Made by a program: the position numbers and the translations under genes
Notes under the pieces: model-generated
Database searches by the model: none
The model's input: only the letters and a program-made list of their open reading frames with translations
What the model was told of the DNA's origin: nothing
Assembly (NCBI GenBank): GCA_031277165.1
Contig: JAISLT010000120.1
Span: forward strand, 1 to 51,835
Length of the DNA: 51,835 nucleotides
Reading direction: 5' to 3'
DNA from: Spirochaetaceae bacterium
Lineage (GTDB): Bacteria > Spirochaetota > Spirochaetia > Treponematales > Breznakiellaceae
Shown: positions 1-51,835 of the stretch, piece after piece
How the letters are laid out: each line of letters starts with the position of its first letter
Numbering within the stretch: position 1 is the stretch's first letter

Positions 1-41
1 GACCCACAAATCAAGACCTGATTACAATAATGAAGAACCCA

Positions 42-117
42 GGAGCAAGCTCCGGGGTATGTACCCGGCCTTCCAATCAAGAATTAGGAACCACCAAGGC
101 GCATGAACCTACGGTTC
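42..117 (+). repeat. GxxExxY upstream leader with small inverted repeats
   Basis: The stretch before the broken GxxExxY gene holds a short inverted repeat GGAGC-AA-GCTCC at 42-53, followed directly by CGGGGTAT, and a second one GAACC-TAC-GGTTC at 105-117. The 16-mer GCAAGCTCCGGGGTAT at 45-60 recurs exactly at 16966-16981, where no gene follows. That suggests the leader is part of a dispersed unit that can exist without its gene. Its role is not known. Confidence 0.45.
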
Positions 118-140
118 GCGGGCGCACAAGGGGAAGAAAG

Positions 141-390
141 ATGATTACGCGCGAACAAGAAAAACTCGTCAAAAATGTGCTGGATTGCGCATATGAAGTC
201 CATTCATTTCTGGGACAGGACACTAGAGAGTACCTATCAAACCTGTTTACCGCATGAATTGACACAACAGGGGATTTTTGTGGAATGTGAAAAATCAATA
301 CCTGTTTTATACAAAGGAACAGCCAGTGATTGCGGTTACCGTATTGATATGATGGTCGAACACGGTCAATTTCTCATAGAAAACAAGTGG
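141..390 (+). pseudogene. GxxExxY family protein, frameshifted and 3'-truncated
   Basis: GxxExxY proteins (PF13366, PD-(D/E)XK-like fold, function unknown) are usually about 120-130 residues. Here translation from ATG 141, with the purine-rich AAGGGGAAG just upstream, gives MITREQEKLVKNVLDCAYEV then HSFLGQ. The frame is lost near 215-223, inside the G-x-x-E-x-x-Y motif itself. The next frame continues with LESTYQTCLPHELTQQ and DCGYRIDMMVEHGQFLIENK. Homology to the copy at the right edge of the window stops at about 386, and the gatB stop codon on the other strand begins at 395. The gene therefore has two lesions: a frameshift in the signature motif and loss of the last third. It looks like a dead copy. 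The protein fragments are clear; only the order of events is inferred. Confidence 0.8.
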
Positions 391-392
391 GA

Positions 393-9456: not shown

Positions 9457-11736
9457 TCACGGTCCCCGTAACGCAAGGGCAAGGGTCTTTTGTAAAGTAT
9501 AGGATTTGCCGTATACCGTTATGTGCTTTTCCGTGCCCGAAAGCAGAGTAAGGGTAAGGGTGGATTTGCTGATGCCGATCTGAATAAGGCTGTCCTGGTA
9601 ACGGATACGAAAGCGGTAGCTCTGCCAGGGATCGGGAATGGCGGGGTTCAAAAAAAGGCCCCGTTCCTTGATCCGCAGCCCGGCAAAACCGTAGACAATG
9701 GCCATCCAGGTTCCCCCCATGTTGGCGGTATGGATGCCGTCCTTGGTATTGCCGTGGGTATCGTACAGATCCAGCATCGCCGAATCGCCAAAGTAACGGT
9801 AGGCCTTTTCGCGGTACCCCAGTTTGGAGGCCACGATGCTGAATATGCAGGTTGAAAGGGAGGAATCGTGGGTGGTTATTTCCTCGTAGTATAAAAAGGA
9901 TCTTCGTATAAGCTCTTTGTTCTGTCCGTCTTCAAAAATAAAATGGGCTAAGACCGTATCGGCCTGTTTGCATACCTGGTGACGGTACAGGTGAAGGGGA
10001 TGGTAATGGAGCAGCAGGGGAAAATCTTCCTTGGGCGTACCGGCCAGGTCCCATTTTTTTTTGGAAAGGAATGAATCGTCCTGGGGGTTAATTCCCAGTT
10101 CCTCGTCGTAGGGAAGGTACATGGCCTTTTCTGCCCGGGAAAAGGTCTGGATCTCCCGGGGGCTTAGATCTATTTTGGCCGCCAGGGGGTTTAGCCGCTG
10201 TGCATTCTTAAGCATGTGGTAAAACCGGACCGCCCAATGGAGGTTAAACTGGGCCGAGCGGTTGGTATAGTAATTGTTGTTTACCATGCAGGTATATTCA
10301 TCGGGGCCGGTTACCCCGTGGATCTGAAAAGTCCCCCGGTACCAGGCGCCGGCATCGATCCAAAGCCGGGCACATTCAAAGACAAGCTCCGCCCCCTTTT
10401 CGGCAATAAATTCAAAATCCCCCGTGGCAAGGTAATAGGAAACCACCGACCAGGCCACATCCCCGTTAATGTGGTACTGGGCGGTTCCTGCGGGAAAGTA
10501 CCCGGAACATTCCCTGCCCATGATCGTCCGCCAGGGAAACAGGGCCCCCTGTTTATGCCCCAGGAGCCGGGCGTTTTTCCGGGCCTCGTCCAGGGCGGCA
10601 TGACGGTACGCAATAAGGTTCCGGCCTATGGCGCTCCGGGTTAGGGTAAAAAAGGGCTCTATGTACATCTCCGTATCCCAGAAAAAATGTCCCTCGTAGC
10701 CCTCTCCGCTTAATCCCTTGGCGGCGATGCTGCCCCGGTCGTCCCTGCCCGCGGACTGAAGAAGCTGGTACATATTGTACCGCACCGCAGAGGCACATTT
10801 TTCGTCCCCGTCTATTTCCAGCAGGGCCCCCTCCCAGAATTCCCCCAGGTATTTTTCCTGGCTGCGGTACAGGGCATCGGCGCCGGCAGAAACCGCATCC
10901 CGCAGTTCCTGCCCGGCGGCTTCTTCACAGTCCTCCCATCGCAGGCTGTCGGTAAAAACGGCGTACTTTAAAAGCCGCAGGGTTTTTCCCTTTTCAAGGA
11001 TGCCGCCGATCTGTGTCTTAGCCCCCTCCGGGTAGGCTTCGGTGCTAAGGGTAATTCCCCGGCCCCCTTCTACGGCATGATCCACCGCGGTACAAACCAA
11101 GAGCCCCGATTTCGAGGTTTCGCTGACAATAAACGAAGCGGCCCCTTCGGTCCTGCACCGGACCGGAAGAAGGTGCCGCAGACTTTCGGCGGCCACCCGG
11201 GGATCCCCGGGGTTGCTGTAATTTTTTACATCCCCCCGGTGGGTAGAAATAATGCGCAGGTTCCCCTGAAAATTTAAAGCGGTAACGGAATAGTCAATAA
11301 AAAAAAGGGGAAGCCGGGTAAAAGACGCCACCCGGCGTATGTCCATCCGGACCTCCTTGCCCTGGGGGGACCGCCAGATAATATGGCGCCCGGTATAGCC
11401 CTTTTCCATGTCCAGAATTCGTTCGGCCCTAAGTATCTGCCCGCTAAAGAGGCTGAATTCTTCGCCCCCAAGAAAAAGTTTAATCCCCTGGGTATCGGCC
11501 ACATTCACCATGGTCTGCTTTTCTTCCACCAGGCCATAGAGCTTTTCCGCCTGCTTCATCCGGACAAAGTCGTAGACCCCGTTTATGTAGGAGCCCCGGA
11601 TCGTTTCTATCCCTTCGGCATAGCCCTCTTCAAAATTGGAACGCACCCCCAGATAACCGTTGGCGTTATGAAAGAGCGTTTCGTCCAGCAGCAATGCGCC
11701 GGGATCATCCGCTTGTATCTTTTTCCGGTACTGCAC
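9457..11736 (-). CDS. Glycoside hydrolase family 65 disaccharide phosphorylase
   Basis: GH65 enzymes split alpha-linked disaccharides (maltose, trehalose, kojibiose, nigerose) with phosphate to give beta-glucose 1-phosphate and a sugar. The 759-residue length is normal. The N-terminal domain starts LLLDETLFHNANGYLGVRSN. The catalytic (alpha/alpha)6 barrel contains GHFFWDTEMYIEPFF and, near residue 477, GVTGPDEYTCMVNNNYYTN with the general-acid Glu; the KQADTVLAHF phosphate-site region comes later. A cytoplasmic location is expected. It follows the sugar permease by one base and shares a locus with beta-phosphoglucomutase, which would convert the product to glucose 6-phosphate. The exact disaccharide cannot be decided from motifs alone. 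The start is GTG 11736 with only a weak ribosome site, so coupling to the permease is likely. Confidence 0.93.
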   Translation of the reverse strand: MQYRKKIQADDPGALLLDETLFHNANGYLGVRSNFEEGYAEGIETIRGSYINGVYDFVRMKQAEKLYGLVEEKQTMVNVADTQGIKLFLGGEEFSLFSGQILRAERILDMEKGYTGRHIIWRSPQGKEVRMDIRRVASFTRLPLFFIDYSVTALNFQGNLRIISTHRGDVKNYSNPGDPRVAAESLRHLLPVRCRTEGAASFIVSETSKSGLLVCTAVDHAVEGGRGITLSTEAYPEGAKTQIGGILEKGKTLRLLKYAVFTDSLRWEDCEEAAGQELRDAVSAGADALYRSQEKYLGEFWEGALLEIDGDEKCASAVRYNMYQLLQSAGRDDRGSIAAKGLSGEGYEGHFFWDTEMYIEPFFTLTRSAIGRNLIAYRHAALDEARKNARLLGHKQGALFPWRTIMGRECSGYFPAGTAQYHINGDVAWSVVSYYLATGDFEFIAEKGAELVFECARLWIDAGAWYRGTFQIHGVTGPDEYTCMVNNNYYTNRSAQFNLHWAVRFYHMLKNAQRLNPLAAKIDLSPREIQTFSRAEKAMYLPYDEELGINPQDDSFLSKKKWDLAGTPKEDFPLLLHYHPLHLYRHQVCKQADTVLAHFIFEDGQNKELIRRSFLYYEEITTHDSSLSTCIFSIVASKLGYREKAYRYFGDSAMLDLYDTHGNTKDGIHTANMGGTWMAIVYGFAGLRIKERGLFLNPAIPDPWQSYRFRIRYQDSLIQIGISKSTLTLTLLSGTEKHITVYGKSYTLQKTLALALRGP

Positions 11737-11737
11737 A

Positions 11738-12577
11738 CTACTTTACCGCGCCGGCGGCCACTCCCTTGATTATGTATTTTTGAGAAAAAAGATAGAACAG
11801 TACCACGGGAATAATAGTAAGCATCAGCCCCGCCATGGCCATGTTCCACTGGATGGTAAACTCCCCAAAGAAAGACGCCGTTGAAAGGGGGATCGTCCTG
11901 TGGGCCTTGCTGGTCAACACCAGCGACGGAAGAAGGTAATCGTTCCATATCCAGATTACGTCCAGCACCATGACGGTGACGGTCACCGGCTTAAGAATAG
12001 GAAAGACTATGTGCCAAAAAACCTGGAACTTGTTGCAGCCGTCAATAATCGCCGCTTCTTCCAAAGACACCGGCACGGATTTGATAAAGCCGTGGTACAG
12101 GAACACCGCCATGCTGGCGCCAAAGCCTATGTTCATATAAACCAGGGCCCCCAGGGTGTCTACCATGGGGATCCCCAGCTTATCATGGATTCCCCCCATG
12201 ACCTGCATCAGGGGCATCATAAGGGTTTGGAAGGGAATAAGCATGGTGACCACAAAGATCATAAAAATAAGCTTGGAAATCCGGTTGTTTTCCCGCACCA
12301 GCATCCAGGCGCACATGGAAGAAAAAACCACAATAAAGAAGATAGAAATTACCGTAACAAAGAAGGAGTTGCCCAGGGCCGAAAGAAAATTCATTCTGCC
12401 CATGGCGTCGGCATAATACTGGAAGCTGAATGTCTTAGGAAGGGCCAGGATATTTTCGTATAGTTCCGCCCGGTTTTTAAAGGAATTAACCAGGACTATA
12501 TATGCGGGAAACAGGTACAACAGGCAAAAGACAAGGCAGGCGGCATTTAAAATAAAGGGTTTGGCGGGGTTTTTCAT
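11738..12577 (-). CDS. Carbohydrate ABC transporter permease, MalG type
   Basis: Inner-membrane subunit of a CUT1 sugar importer. The 279-residue protein has six predicted membrane segments, beginning FILNAACLVFCLLYLFPAYIV. The cytoplasmic EAA loop reads EEAAIIDGCNKFQVFWHIVFP, the contact site for the ATPase. It ends with the Lys/Gly-rich short tail typical of MalG. ATG 12577 overlaps the stop of the upstream permease (ATGA). Confidence 0.94.
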   Translation of the reverse strand: MKNPAKPFILNAACLVFCLLYLFPAYIVLVNSFKNRAELYENILALPKTFSFQYYADAMGRMNFLSALGNSFFVTVISIFFIVVFSSMCAWMLVRENNRISKLIFMIFVVTMLIPFQTLMMPLMQVMGGIHDKLGIPMVDTLGALVYMNIGFGASMAVFLYHGFIKSVPVSLEEAAIIDGCNKFQVFWHIVFPILKPVTVTVMVLDVIWIWNDYLLPSLVLTSKAHRTIPLSTASFFGEFTIQWNMAMAGLMLTIIPVVLFYLFSQKYIIKGVAAGAVK

Positions 12578-16965: not shown

Positions 16966-16981
16966 CGGCAAGCTCCGGGGT
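16966..16981 (+). repeat. Solo copy of the GxxExxY leader 16-mer
   Basis: GCAAGCTCCGGGGTAT here is identical to 45-60, ahead of the GxxExxY pseudogene. No GxxExxY coding sequence follows; clpS begins 92 bases later. It is best read as a remnant of the dispersed GxxExxY unit. Confidence 0.5.
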
Positions 16982-17033
16982 ATTGAACCAGACTTTCGAA
17001 TGAGCCTCCGCGGAGCAGAATTCCGCCGTCCGC

Positions 17034-17073: not shown

Positions 17074-17376
17074 ATGCCAGGAGACGGTACAAAGCTGCTT
17101 GATAAAAAGAAACACAAACTTAAGGAACCGGAGGAATACCGGGTCATACTGCTTAATGACAACTTTACCCCCATGGAATTTGTGGTAGAAGTGGTGATGA
17201 TCGTTTTCCACAAAAAACGGGAGGATGCTACCAAGATCATGCTGGATGTTCACCAAAAGGGAAAGGGAACGGTGGGGGTTTATCCCTATGACATAGCTCA
17301 AACCAAGGCTAACCATGTTCATTTTCTTGCACGGCAAAACAGCTTTCCGTTAAAATGCATCGTGGAAAAGGCCTAG
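17074..17376 (+). CDS. clpS: ATP-dependent Clp protease adaptor ClpS
   Basis: ClpS recognises N-degrons (Leu, Phe, Tyr, Trp at the N-terminus) and docks them on the ClpA N-domain. The 100-residue protein has the family core YRVILLNDNFTPMEFVVEVV with the N-degron pocket (NDNFTPMEFV), VHQKGKGTVGVYPYDIAQTK and a final CIVEKA. The start at ATG 17074 gives a short charged N-terminal extension needed for delivery. It lies upstream of clpA and aat, so adaptor, unfoldase and N-degron-making transferase are neighbours. A weak hairpin with a T-run after the stop may separate its transcript from clpA. Confidence 0.97.
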   Translation: MPGDGTKLLDKKKHKLKEPEEYRVILLNDNFTPMEFVVEVVMIVFHKKREDATKIMLDVHQKGKGTVGVYPYDIAQTKANHVHFLARQNSFPLKCIVEKA

Positions 17377-17409
17377 GAACCTGCTGCGCTTGTGCATAAA
17401 ACCCTTAAA

Positions 17410-17432
17410 AATCACCGGGTAGGCGATTTTTT
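17410..17432 (+). terminator. Probable clpS terminator
   Basis: AATCACC (17410-17416), loop GGGTA, GGCGATT (17422-17428) makes a 7-base stem with one mismatch, followed by a run of T to 17432. A weak Rho-independent terminator. Confidence 0.45.
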
Positions 17433-17520
17433 ACCCTGCAAACTCCATCGGACCAAAGGTCCGCCGCAGCCCGGTAACCGTAAATTTTTATACATTTTGC
17501 GATAAAGCGTACTATTCTCC

Positions 17521-20839: not shown

Positions 20840-20881
20840 AGCTCCCCACTAAGCAGCGGCGCCGGCAACTACGCGGCCGTG

Positions 20882-20923
20882 GAATTCGTTTTCCACTTTG
20901 ATTGGACGCAACAAAACTCCTAG
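20882..20923 (+). repeat. Remnant of a GxxExxY gene 3' end
   Basis: This stretch reads EFVFHFDWTQQNS then stop, against GFLFNFD-stop followed by the same TQQNS-stop bases at the right edge of the window. At nucleotide level 26 of 27 bases agree, including the full run GACGCAACAAAACTCCTAG. It lies 43 bases after the aat stop. No upstream part of the gene is present, so it is a solo 3' tail. The rest of the 155-base gap between aat and the oxidoreductase shows nothing else. Confidence 0.6.
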
Positions 20924-20994
20924 TGCGAAGGCTCCTAGACGCGGCCCTGGGCCCGCAGAATTTAAGTAATCTAAGCGCCAAGGGCGGGAACGGT

Positions 20995-42960: not shown

Positions 42961-44796
42961 ATGCAAAGACGCTATTCCTCCCCCGAAAAGGGGCTTTTCC
43001 CCCTCCTGCCCGCCCTTGTGCTGGCGGGGGCGTTTGGTATGTTCTGCGGCTGCGACGCCCTGAACGCCCCCCTGAAAGAAGAAATCGCCTACCACCTTTC
43101 CCTGCACCCGGTAAAAACCGGGGAAGAACTGACCGCCGCCATAGGGGCCGTTCCCCCAGGCGGGTCAGGGGCTTTTACGATCATGACCGACATTTTTCTT
43201 TCCGCGACGATCCTCATAGACGGTAAAACAATCACCGTGGAAGCCTATGCGGGGAACAGTGACGAAAAAGTAATCCGCCGGGCGGCGGGATTTTCGGGCT
43301 TGATGTTTAGGGTACAGTCCGGCGGGAAACTGGTGCTGGGCGGCGGCCGGAACAAGGAAAACCTGGCGCTGGACGGGGAAAAACGCGCCGGCAGCGATTC
43401 CCTGGTTACGGTCCCAGGCAGCGGAGCGCTGGTTTTGAACGATGGGGCGGAACTGAGAAACAACCGTGAGCCTGCCCCTCAGCAAGGCGGCGCCGTGCTT
43501 GTTTCAGGCGGCAGCTTCACCATGAACGGCGGCTTAATCACCGGGAATGCGGTTACCGGAAGCCTGTCTGGGAGCGGCGGCGGCGGCGTTTATATAAGCG
43601 GCTCCGGTAGCAGTTTTGTCATGAACGGGGGTTCTATCACCGGGAACACCGTCAGCGGGAACGATACCATGGGTGCGGGGGTATTTGTCAAGGGCGGTAG
43701 TTTTGCTATGAACGGGGGAACCATCAGCGAGAACGAAACAGAGAAGGACGGCGGCGGGGTATACGTTACCGGCGGCTTCACCATGAACGGGGGTTCCGTG
43801 AGCGGGAACACCGCCGGGAACGACGGCGGCGGAGTATGCGTTACCGGCGCCGGTAGGTTTACCATGAACGGAGGTTCCATCAGCGGGAACATTTCCACCT
43901 TCGGCGGCGGCGGGGTGGGCAGCACACATGGTGGTGAATTCACCATGAAGAACGGGAGCCTGCGTGGAAACACCGCGAGCCATGGCGGCGGAGTAATAGT
44001 TTTTAACAATGCCTCCTTCAGGATGGAGGGAGGGAGTATCAGCGAAAACACCGCCATTCATGGCCTGGTGCCTGCTATCCCCCTTGCCGGTGGCGGAGTA
44101 CTGGTCCGTAGCGCATCCGGAGGCTTTACCATGACCGGGGGAAGCATCAGCGGGAACATCGCCTCCGAAGGGTATGGCGGCGGGGTGTGTGTCTCTGACG
44201 GTCCGTTTTATATGTCTGAAGGAACGATTAGCGGGAACGTTGCCCGCTTGAGTGATGGCGGCGGAGTGTATGTACATAGTGGAAGTACATCATTTACTAT
44301 GTCCGGAGGAACGATCGGCGTGAATACCGCCGGGGGCAACGGCGGCGGGGTGTATATCTTTTCTACGCCAATACCTCCTTATACATCATTTACGCTATCC
44401 GGGGGAAGGATCAGCAGGAATACCGCCGGCGACAGGGGTGGCGGGGTGTGCAACGAGCAGGGCGAGTTCACCATGTCCGGGGGAACGATCAGCGGGAACA
44501 CCGCCGCAGTACAGGGCGGCGGGGTACACAACTGGAATGGTCTCTTCAAAATGGGGGGTTCCGCGACGGTGAACGTTGATAATCCGGTATTCCCTCAGGG
44601 CGCTGCAGCAGCGATAACCCTGACCGGCCCCCTCAGCGCCAACCCCGCGGCGAACATAGCAGGGACCTTCGGAAGCGGAACACAGCTTTTGACCAACAAC
44701 GCTTTTCTAATGGGGGGATCTCCCGCGAATTATACCCGGTTTCTTGTCAACGGGGCGCCGGGTAAGATTAACCACCTCGGGGTGTATACCCCATAG
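42961..44796 (+). CDS. Surface lipoprotein with tandem MNGG-x-ISGN repeats (copy 1)
   Basis: About 611 residues. A lipoprotein-type signal ends near the GMFCGCDAL cysteines. A conserved 130-residue head (PLKEEIAYHLSLHPVKTGEE ... GKLVLGGGRNKENLALDGEK) precedes about 14 imperfect repeats of about 25 residues, pattern FTMNGGSISGNTA-x-x-GGGVYV. These build a right-handed parallel beta-helix of the kind seen in treponemal and chlamydial Pmp-like adhesins. The C-terminal cap is LTGPLSANPAANIAGTFGSG ... YTRFLVNGAPGKINHLGVYT. The next gene has the same head and cap with fewer repeats. ATG 42961 or the GTG directly before it may be used. Confidence 0.85.
   Translation: MQRRYSSPEKGLFPLLPALVLAGAFGMFCGCDALNAPLKEEIAYHLSLHPVKTGEELTAAIGAVPPGGSGAFTIMTDIFLSATILIDGKTITVEAYAGNSDEKVIRRAAGFSGLMFRVQSGGKLVLGGGRNKENLALDGEKRAGSDSLVTVPGSGALVLNDGAELRNNREPAPQQGGAVLVSGGSFTMNGGLITGNAVTGSLSGSGGGGVYISGSGSSFVMNGGSITGNTVSGNDTMGAGVFVKGGSFAMNGGTISENETEKDGGGVYVTGGFTMNGGSVSGNTAGNDGGGVCVTGAGRFTMNGGSISGNISTFGGGGVGSTHGGEFTMKNGSLRGNTASHGGGVIVFNNASFRMEGGSISENTAIHGLVPAIPLAGGGVLVRSASGGFTMTGGSISGNIASEGYGGGVCVSDGPFYMSEGTISGNVARLSDGGGVYVHSGSTSFTMSGGTIGVNTAGGNGGGVYIFSTPIPPYTSFTLSGGRISRNTAGDRGGGVCNEQGEFTMSGGTISGNTAAVQGGGVHNWNGLFKMGGSATVNVDNPVFPQGAAAAITLTGPLSANPAANIAGTFGSGTQLLTNNAFLMGGSPANYTRFLVNGAPGKINHLGVYTP
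43490..44540 (+). repeat. Tandem beta-helix repeat array, copy 1
   Basis: About 14 in-frame units of roughly 75 bases sharing ACCATGAACGG, AGCGGGAACA and GGCGGCGGGGT modules. Unit borders differ slightly and some carry insertions. Several units match units of the second gene almost base for base, for example around 43568-43625 and 45541-45595. Confidence 0.75.
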
Positions 44797-44897
44797 GCCG
44801 CGGTAGACCGAATTCCGGCGTGCGGAATGGAGTAAAGAGGCAGTATGCCTGTCTTACCGCCGTGGAGCCGCATGTAAAAACCTGCCAAAAAGAAGAC

Positions 44898-44925
44898 TTG
44901 ACTTTTTGCCCCGCCGTGGTATGAT
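44898..44925 (+). promoter_or_regulatory. Promoter of repeat lipoprotein 2
   Basis: TTGACT (44898-44903), 16 bases, TATGAT (44920-44925). It is part of the duplicated upstream region. Confidence 0.65.
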
Positions 44926-44955
44926 AAGGCGACAGTGTAAAGAGGTGATTCTGCC

Positions 44956-45996
44956 GTGAAAAAATTCTATTCCAGCCCGGGGACTTTCCTCCTTATGCTG
45001 GCGGGGGCGCTTGGCACGCTCGGCGGCTGTGATGCCTTTAACGCCCCCCTCAAAGAAGAAATCGACTACCACCTTTCCCTGCACCCGGTAAAAAACGGGG
45101 CAGAACTGGCCGCCGCCATAGGGGCCGTTCCCTCCGGGGGATCCGGAACTTTTGCGATTATAACCGGTATTGTCCTTACCGATACGATCATCATAGATAA
45201 TAATAAAACAATCACCCTGGAAGCCTACGCGGGGAACAGTGACGCAAGAGTAATCCGCAGGGCGGCGGGTTTTACGGGCCCGATGTTTGAGGTACAGTCC
45301 GGCGGGAAACTTGTGCTGGGAGGCGGCCGCGACAAGGAGAATCTGGCGCTGGACGGGGAAAAACGCAGCGCCACCGGTTCCCTGGTTACGGTCACCAGCG
45401 GCGGAGCGCTGGTTTTGAACAGCGGGGCGGAACTGCGGAACAACAGTCGTACCGGCGGCCCCGGCGGCGGGGTATCCGTCTTCTCCTCCGGCAGTTTCAC
45501 CATGAACGGTGGAAGTATCAGTGAAAATACTTCCACCAACGGCGGCGGCGGCGTTTATATAAGCGGCCCCGGTAGCAGTTTTGTCATGAACGGTGGAAGC
45601 ATCAGCGGGAATACTTCCAACTACGGCGGCGGCGGGGTGTACGTTAATGGCGGCAGCTTTGCCATGAACGGTGGAAGCATCAGCGGAAATACTTCCATCA
45701 TTTACGGCGGCGGGGGGGTGTACGTTCCCAGTTCCGGCGGCAGCATCACCATAAGCGGTTCCGCAGAGGTGAACACCAATAACCCGGTGTATCTTCCATC
45801 GGGCAAGACGATAACCCTGACCGGCCCCCTCAGCGCCAACCCCGCGGCAAATATAATACCACAATACCCCAGTGGAGCCCAACTTTTGACCAACAACGCT
45901 TTTCTAATGGCGGGATCTCCCGCGAATTATACCCGTTTTCTTGTCAACGGGGCGCCGGGTAAAATTAACGCTTCCGGGATTTATGTTGGCCCATAG
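44956..45996 (+). CDS. Surface lipoprotein with tandem MNGG-x-ISGN repeats (copy 2)
   Basis: 346 residues; start GTG 44956 with AGAGGTGAT upstream. A lipoprotein signal (FLLMLAGALGTLGGC) is followed by a head nearly identical to copy 1 (FNAPLKEEIDYHLSLHPVKN ... RDKENLALDGEKRS). There are only about four repeats (SFTMNGGSISENTSTNGGGG and similar) and the same cap ending FLVNGAPGKINASGIYVGP. The short array compared with copy 1 points to unequal recombination between repeats. Both are likely displayed on the outer surface or in the periplasm. Confidence 0.85.
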   Translation: MKKFYSSPGTFLLMLAGALGTLGGCDAFNAPLKEEIDYHLSLHPVKNGAELAAAIGAVPSGGSGTFAIITGIVLTDTIIIDNNKTITLEAYAGNSDARVIRRAAGFTGPMFEVQSGGKLVLGGGRDKENLALDGEKRSATGSLVTVTSGGALVLNSGAELRNNSRTGGPGGGVSVFSSGSFTMNGGSISENTSTNGGGGVYISGPGSSFVMNGGSISGNTSNYGGGGVYVNGGSFAMNGGSISGNTSIIYGGGGVYVPSSGGSITISGSAEVNTNNPVYLPSGKTITLTGPLSANPAANIIPQYPSGAQLLTNNAFLMAGSPANYTRFLVNGAPGKINASGIYVGP

Positions 45997-50488: not shown

Positions 50489-51683
50489 AGCCCCGGTAAT
50501 GGCCCTGTTGGTGTCGCTCTTTCTAAGGGCGGTCCCGGTATTCTCCCAGGATCTCCCGCTGCCGGAGCCCTCCCATGAAGCTCCCCTCACGGTTAATGAA
50601 GGAGCCTACTATGTTCTGCGGAGCGAAACCGGGGAGCAAAGGATAATCCAGCGCCTTTCCTGGCCCAGGGACGAGAACGCATACCGGTATGAAGTAATTA
50701 TAGAACGGCAGGAAGGGGAGAAGGACTTTGTCATGGTACACCGGGAATTCACCGGGGAATCTTTTTTAGAAGTCTCCCTGGGGCCGGGAAACTACCGTTA
50801 CCGCGTGGAAATTTACAACCTCCTTAATCAGCATGAATACACGACCAATTGGGCTTCCTTTGTTATTGCCCAGGCCATGCAGCCGCTTATATGGAGCTTT
50901 GCCCCCGCGGGATTTTTTCTGGATGATGATTTTGTCTTAGAAATAGAACTGCAGGGAGAGGATTTTGTGGAGGGAGCGGTCGTCTATCTGGAGCCCCTGG
51001 ACGGGTCCGGCGAGGCAATCCCCGCCATGAACCATGAACTGCATAATTCCGGCAGAAGGATCCGGGCGGCCTTTAACCGGGAAGCTCTTAGCCGGGGCGA
51101 TTACCGGATCGTAATAAAGAACCCCGGCGGCCTCCTGGACGATACCCCGGAAACCTTTAAAATTAAGCTTAGCAGAATATATCCAAGCCTTTCCCTGGAT
51201 TATACCCCCCTTTTACCCCTGCACGGATACCTCTTTGACCTTTTTGACGCCCCTTCCTTTGCGGGCGGAACGATCCGGTCCGATGTGGAACTCCATAAAA
51301 TAGAGTGGGGAATCATAGGGATTGAAGGGAGCCTGTCGTATAATTATCTTTCTACCCGGAAAAACGACATGGACATTACCGCCCACATAGGCACCCTGGA
51401 AGCAAACTTCTTTTTTCGAAAACAGTTTTTCCCCATGGTTTTTACGATCTATGGAGGAACCGGACTGGGGGGAGTTTTTCTGCTGAAATTTGACTACGGC
51501 ATCGGCAAATCGGATCCCTATAATGTCCTGGCGCCGATCCTTAACCTGGGCGGTACCTTTCAATGGTACTTTACCAAGGACCTGTACGCCGAACTGGGGA
51601 TAAAATACATTTTTTTCTTTACCAAAGACAGCCCCCGCCCCGGCTATGTCCGGCCCGCCCTGGGACTTGGCTGGCGGTTCTAG
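50478..51683 (+). CDS. Outer-membrane beta-barrel protein with N-terminal Ig-like domain
   Basis: 401 residues from ATG 50478. A signal peptide (VMALLVSLFLRAVPVFSQ) is followed by a fibronectin/Ig-like part (RYEVIIERQEGEKDFVMVHR, GPGNYRYRVEIYNLLNQHEY) and a second beta domain. The C-terminal half has alternating aromatic strands (IEWGIIGIEGSLSYNYLSTR, GTFQWYFTKDLYAELGIKYI) and ends in GLGWRF with a terminal Phe, the outer-membrane assembly signature. It overlaps the FecR gene by 11 bases, so cyclase, periplasmic FecR protein and barrel are coexpressed. The stop codon sits at the border of the GxxExxY tail sequence on the opposite strand. Confidence 0.82.
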   Translation: MESKAPVMALLVSLFLRAVPVFSQDLPLPEPSHEAPLTVNEGAYYVLRSETGEQRIIQRLSWPRDENAYRYEVIIERQEGEKDFVMVHREFTGESFLEVSLGPGNYRYRVEIYNLLNQHEYTTNWASFVIAQAMQPLIWSFAPAGFFLDDDFVLEIELQGEDFVEGAVVYLEPLDGSGEAIPAMNHELHNSGRRIRAAFNREALSRGDYRIVIKNPGGLLDDTPETFKIKLSRIYPSLSLDYTPLLPLHGYLFDLFDAPSFAGGTIRSDVELHKIEWGIIGIEGSLSYNYLSTRKNDMDITAHIGTLEANFFFRKQFFPMVFTIYGGTGLGGVFLLKFDYGIGKSDPYNVLAPILNLGGTFQWYFTKDLYAELGIKYIFFFTKDSPRPGYVRPALGLGWRF

Positions 51684-51697
51684 GAGTTTTGTTGCGT

Positions 51698-51835
51698 CTA
51701 ATCAAAATTGAACAAAAATCCCAGGGAAATCCCGGAAAGCTTCAGATAGGTGAGCATTTGAGCCGGATGAACATCAGTGAACTCTTTTACCACCTTGTTT
51801 TCTATGAGCAATTGACCGTGTTCGACCATCATATC
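51698..51835 (-). CDS. GxxExxY family protein, 3' end (cut by window edge)
   Basis: The last 45 codons of a GxxExxY gene read DMMVEHGQLLIENKVVKEFT, DVHPAQMLTYLKLSGISLGF, LFNFD then stop (51698-51700). This supplies exactly the part missing from the broken copy at the left edge, and the two overlap by the nearly identical DMMVEHGQ(L/F)LIENK segment. The sequence after the stop, GACGCAACAAAACTCCTAG, recurs at 20905-20923. The CTAG border coincides with the stop codon of the outer-membrane gene on the other strand. The rest of the gene lies outside the window, so whether it is intact is unknown. Confidence 0.8.
   Translation of the reverse strand, partial: DMMVEHGQLLIENKVVKEFTDVHPAQMLTYLKLSGISLGFLFNFD

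Follow-up and report, generated by a model that had tools for sequence, protein, structure and literature searches.

The DNA analysed here, called the window throughout, is one whole contig (C7; 51,835 bp) of the draft genome of a Spirochaetaceae bacterium, which comprises 123 contigs and is 82% complete. Incomplete GxxExxY genes stand at both edges of the window, and a 27-bp sequence in the intergenic region behind aat (20897-20923, TTTGATTGGACGCAACAAAACTCCTAG), referred to as the tail, recurs beside the right-edge gene. A preliminary description had reported that it matches the reverse complement of 51680-51706 at 26 of 27 positions, which recomputation confirmed; about 8e-6 such inverted pairs would be expected by chance in random sequence of the window's composition, and the same number of direct pairs. 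A weaker similarity extends the match to 47 nt (39/47), the 20 added nucleotides agreeing at 13 positions (p ~4e-4). It was likewise correctly recognized that the stop codon of the adjoining outer-membrane-like gene lies within the match and that the left-edge GxxExxY copy is broken. Positions 1-119 are identical to the ends of contigs C52 and C65, positions 51729-51835 correspond to the start of contig C113, and both ends of the window are assembly breaks within repeats. An Rfam search of the window gave zero matches. The window further holds a long protein-coding repeat region (43014-45984) made up of ~75-84 bp units coding for GGSFTMNGGSISGNTA-like repeats, with duplicated blocks that are 83-96% alike and 1.2-2 kb apart. 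The features relevant to the present analysis are listed in Table 1.

Table 1. Mobile-element features in the window and their coordinates.
Positions	Strand	Feature	Remark
1..391	+	Left-edge GxxExxY unit, broken on the right	Gene from ATG 141
32..76	+	45-bp REP-like hairpin insertion holding the 16-mer (45-60)	Flanked by AAT
16968..16983	+	Solo 16-mer, REP-like hairpin arm in a mosaic	No GxxExxY leader
17373..17510		Degenerate CTAG MITE copy	Starts on the clpS stop codon (TAG 17374-17376)
20849..20923		Probable MITE remnant, intergenic after aat	Predicted from the sequence
20897..20923	-	MITE terminal repeat, extra-T variant (CTAGGAGTTTTGTTGCGTCCAATCAAA on the - strand)	Starting observation
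20920..20938		CTAGTGCGAAGGCTCCTAG, second, minimal MITE remnant sharing the CTAG	Like tandem copies elsewhere
51680..51706	+	Same extra-T MITE terminal repeat	Starts in TAG 51681-51683, stop codon of the outer-membrane-like gene
51707..51835	-	Truncated GxxExxY gene fragment	Ends after TTCAATTT

With the stop codon of the gene adjoining the right-edge copy as the starting point, the tail reads CTAGGAGTTTTGTTGCGTC. A search with TAGSAGYYTGTYGC, allowing at most one mismatch, yielded 172 matches in the genome, compared with 6 for a reversed-pattern control. These terminal repeats pair as inverted ends, mostly 144-157 bp apart (e.g., CTAGGAGCCTGTCGCAC...GCGCAACAAACTGCTAG) and with inner hairpins, and tandem copies have one CTAG in common. 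Exact ends number 73 in this genome, 47 in genome G020, and 13 and 6 in two congeners, while none were found in the other families searched. The repeats delimit a non-autonomous MITE of ~145 bp that targets CTAG and contains two hairpins, and a variant of its terminal repeat constitutes the 27-bp tail. In being short and multicopy, with inverted ends and no gene, the element agrees with the definition of MITEs. CTAG bounds the copies on both sides, a palindromic target which alone cannot prove duplication. The tail deviates from the MITE consensus by one extra T. This form (TAGGAGTTTTGTTGCG) has no exact copy beyond its two sites in the 40 genomes searched, and a 19-mer of the tail occurs at two sites only in the assembled genome, those of the matches at 20897-20923 and 51680-51706. 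Because the extra-T form is private to both sites, the two ends have a recent common ancestry. Elsewhere in the same genome (G000:C99, ~11190-11900; L037, L334), the remnant of a GxxExxY unit is located between a different pair of CTAG-type ends (CTAGCAGCTTGATTA...TAATCAAGCTGCTAG) and adjoins a short 83-bp CTAG MITE.

The tail had been taken for the 3' end of the GxxExxY gene, a reading that is ruled out by the alignment of all copies: the sequence is a MITE terminus genome-wide without GxxExxY, and the four other 3' copies (contigs C48, C99, C23 and C54) continue after TTCAATTT through CAATGTACAGCACTTTAAAACCGGAGTACGGAGAGTCGTTCTCTAACCCTTCCTTCGTGCGCC to GTGGGTCAAGTTTAG, from which C23 and C54 deviate by single bases. 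The right-edge copy departs from them at TTCAATTT, directly into the MITE end, and is missing the terminal portion of the gene as well as the genuine end of the unit. The right-edge gene was probably truncated by fusion to a MITE end, as the order of events is reconstructed here, and the piece after aat would represent this private variant in eroded form. This piece features a possible degenerate second end (CTAAGCAGC) at 20849 and an inner GTGGAA/TTCCAC palindrome; alternatively, its inner part may be a degenerate piece of GxxExxY (13/20 match). The site after aat was considered for an empty-site comparison and rejected, as gene order there is not conserved even in the congener. As a refinement of the explanation preferred here, not an alternative to it, a chimeric MITE with a captured GxxExxY fragment might have transposed, so that the right-edge sequence and the piece after aat would be its two copies, the latter eroded. 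Both sites have the private extra-T end and the next bases, TCYAATCAAA, in common, followed by the additional 13/20 match to the gene, and a GxxExxY unit between two other CTAG-type ends exists on contig C99. However, the extra 20 nt of the aat copy also form the MITE-like palindrome, and the second end of the right-edge copy lies off the contig, and this refinement is put forward as a tentative one.

The edge of the MITE bears a particular relation to stop codons. Of 35 distinct outer flanks, 14 have an edge TAG that terminates an open frame of 100 or more codons, compared with 10% of control TAGs, and two such cases, clpS and the outer-membrane-like gene, are found in the window. A proC-like gene has the MITE on its stop codon in this genome and in G001, whereas G002 lacks it and reads GCGTAAGGG at the site. 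The position of the tail on or near gene 3' ends, where it abuts stop codons, as well as the inner hairpins, which could end transcription, would also suit a conserved transcription terminator or gene-end signal; yet tandem copies sharing a CTAG, the two-ended structure, the patchy distribution between species and the existence of both filled and empty orthologous sites make this very improbable. Regarded as a MITE, the tail element resembles other bacterial MITEs in its size of ~145 bp, its inverted ends, the lack of a gene, its many copies and its short palindromic target. It differs in that its target CTAG favours stop codons without harm and in that a partner element, i.e., an autonomous one with the same ends, was not found in the loci examined. 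Since the target overlaps TAG stop codons and survives insertion, copies can settle harmlessly on the 3' ends of genes.

A 16-mer had been regarded as the 5' leader of the GxxExxY unit. It is present in the window at 45-60 and at 16968-16983, the latter site having been placed two bases off (16966-16981). Palindromes such as ATACCCaGGAGC-AA-GCTCCGGGGTAT have the 16-mer as their right arm, and 9 exact and ~20 near copies were counted, with 0 in the control. Most of these are not beside GxxExxY. The supposed leader makes up one of the two arms in a dispersed REP-like hairpin, and the alignment of all copies rules out that it belongs to the gene. At the left edge it was brought in by the 45-bp insertion inside the unit, which a congener's unit lacks, running continuously from ATTACAATAAT into CAAGAATTAGG. 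An association with tyrosine transposases is typical of many REPs. The hairpins found here share with REP/BIME elements that they are short and GC-rich, occur in intergenic mosaics and are entered by insertion sequences, REP elements being known IS targets (PMC1525189). That GxxExxY genes move as a unit from GCAAGCTCCGGGGTAT to GACGCAACAAAACTCCTAG, as the preliminary description proposed, is practically untenable. Both motifs do adjoin the broken genes at the window edges, and with the weak 13/20 match the common tail reaches another 20 nt into the gene, but the 19-mer is missing from the four other 3' ends, most copies of the 16-mer lie in other places and the left-edge one was inserted into the unit, the true terminal inverted repeats are located outside both motifs, and the two do not co-occur around other GxxExxY genes.

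The underlying idea of a GxxExxY mini-element with defined ends nevertheless holds, with other ends than those proposed. The GxxExxY units, 284-628 bp in length, end in 15-bp inverted repeats CTAAACTTGACCCAC. These bound five units with GxxExxY sequence in the congener G002 (284-486 bp) as well as an intact 628-bp unit in G021, the only one among the units of both genomes with an intact passenger gene. The latter encodes a full GxxExxY protein above the family cut-off (TIGR04256, E=6.7e-40; PF13366, E=2e-38), and the fragments in the window also exceed the PF13366 cut-off. With IS-type inverted ends around a passenger gene and no transposase, the units correspond to cassettes. In the window's own genome, contigs C48, C99, C23 and C54 carry the 3' end of the unit, and C52 has the 5' end; no assembled copy has both ends, and several contigs break inside the repeat, as near-identical copies lead one to expect. 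As C52 carries the 5' end and overlaps positions 1-119 exactly, the window starts eight bases inside the unit, with the remainder of the terminal repeat (GACCCAC) at 1-7, CTAAACTT supplied by C52, and the array starting with GGAACCACCAAGGCGCA. Every assembled GxxExxY copy in this genome is broken by a frameshift, a stop, an internal deletion or truncation. Target duplications matching at 8 of 9 positions flank two of the five G002 units, and the 628-bp unit of G021 is without a clean one. Empty and filled sites in relatives, a comparison suggested earlier, are represented by one case: the unit located after the SRP RNA gene in G002 is absent in G001, another congener, and the own genome has other repeats at this place. 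Genes of a sugar locus in G056 and G047 were considered as a further empty site and rejected, as the neighbour gene differs and no clean empty site results. Among plasmids, only 7 records with GxxExxY were found, none related closely enough for filled/empty pairs.

The end sequence of the unit occurs in 23 of 59 genomes, all of one family and with almost no control matches, and in none of four other families. Besides the GxxExxY cassettes, it bounds small MITE-like elements of 172-262 bp and two full-length elements of 1,469 bp (G012) and 1,445 bp (G015). The 1,469-bp element encodes an uninterrupted transposase of 473 aa, which belongs to the IS4 family (IS4_3/NF033590, E=1e-101), exceeds the cut-offs of the Tn5 domains PF02281 and PF14706, matches Tn5 structures (E=5e-27) and features the YREK motif YMQRWKIERFHYVLK. 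The window's own genome contains no intact assembled transposase, only fragments on C49, C42 and C119. Near-exact direct repeats of 8-10 bp flank 12 of 26 elements, compared with 10 of 650 mispaired flanks, and both full-length copies are without a clean target duplication. After rejoining, roughly one in two targets forms a significant hairpin, in line with the role of REP elements as IS targets (PMC1525189). The IS50 subgroup is defined by a size of 1350-1550 bp, direct repeats of 8-9 bp and the end consensus CW------Y---CA-A--W- (PMC2266710). The parent IS agrees in size and in its 8-9 bp direct repeats, which do not occur at the two full-length copies, and its end CTAAACTTGACCCACAAAAT fits 6 of 7 defined positions, with G instead of Y at position 9. 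It resembles the IS50 (Tn5) subgroup in its length of 1,445-1,469 bp, the YREK motif, the Tn5 DNA-binding and dimerisation domains, the 8-9 bp duplications and the CT ends with CA-A at positions 13-16, and differs in the G at position 9 and in its frequent insertion into REP-like hairpins. Two further structures were observed. On contig C188 of G022 (L299), two CTAAACTTGACCCA MITE copies flank a gene for an acyl-CoA-synthetase-like protein of 577 aa, a composite-transposon-like stretch of 2.2 kb, and on contig C185 of G028 (L307), tandem GAGAGTC.GCTTCGACTCT repeats occupy the interior of a 378-bp element that has CTAAACTTGACCCA ends.

Taken together, it is very probable that the tail is the end of a CTAG MITE, the leader a REP-like hairpin, and GxxExxY a passenger cassette with IS50/Tn5-like ends. 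Cassette ends, copies, duplications, one empty site and the transposase family are direct observations, and the shared ends suggest that the cassette may be mobilised in trans by the transposase of the parent IS. An IS4-family transposase would cut at the CTAAACTTGACCCAC ends and insert the cassette, often into REP-like hairpins and with the formation of 8-9 bp duplications. With every assembled passenger copy in the genome broken, the GxxExxY protein is a less fitting agent of movement than a transposase supplied in trans. The GxxExxY unit is best read as a passenger cassette that has no transposase and is moved in trans, its passenger gene being broken in the window's genome. Comparable structures are mobile insertion cassettes (MICs), which are mentioned in a review of the IS4 family (PMC2266710). 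Like MICs and other passenger-carrying IS derivatives, the unit has IS-type inverted ends, a passenger gene, no transposase and short duplications, and its ends are the same as those of a full IS in related genomes. Unlike in MICs, a GxxExxY (TIGR04256) gene serves as the passenger, enclosed by inverted short-period arrays of its own; a passenger of this type was not found in the literature searched.

Such arrays are not confined to this family. GxxExxY genes of many phyla (L127-L206, L041-L059) lie inside inverted short-period arrays that start with AACCRC (e.g., AACCACGGAGACACGGAG, TTAACCGCAATGGACGCAATGG, ACCACAGAGACACAGAG), the unit varying by locus, yet matching on both sides of one gene. 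Paired flanks scored above the 99th percentile of mispaired ones in 18 of 78 loci, as did 0 of 329 control positions. The same inverted-array geometry, with other repeat units (GTTGGGACTTGGGACTTGGGAATTGG, GGTGAGGGGTGAGGGGTGAG, GTAGCAGGTAGCAGG, GTGAATGGGTGAAT), surrounds genes for IVP/S23-type four-helix bundles (PF05635) in related genomes (L249-L266). In the literature searched, only two papers mention GxxExxY, each with a different topic, and nothing was found there on flanking arrays. It is possible, though on the doubtful side, that GxxExxY and S23/IVP genes of many phyla are the cargo of widespread, undescribed minimal units defined by arrays, and that the IS-ended cassettes of the present family are such an array unit captured by an IS. 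As part of this proposal, arrays of the type AACCRCRRAG... for GxxExxY, and of other periods such as TTGGGACTTGGGA or GGTGAGGGGTGAG for IVP, would bring the gene along with whatever local transposon is present.

The tail element is a good example of a MITE which, owing to its CTAG target, can occupy stop codons free of damage. With regard to GxxExxY, a common gene family of unknown role, the comparison of genomes shows that, in one bacterial family, its members are mobile passengers whose ends can be identified, and that units with broken copies occur in several places. Beyond this family, the arrays found across phyla suggest a wider, testable rule on how such small genes may spread.
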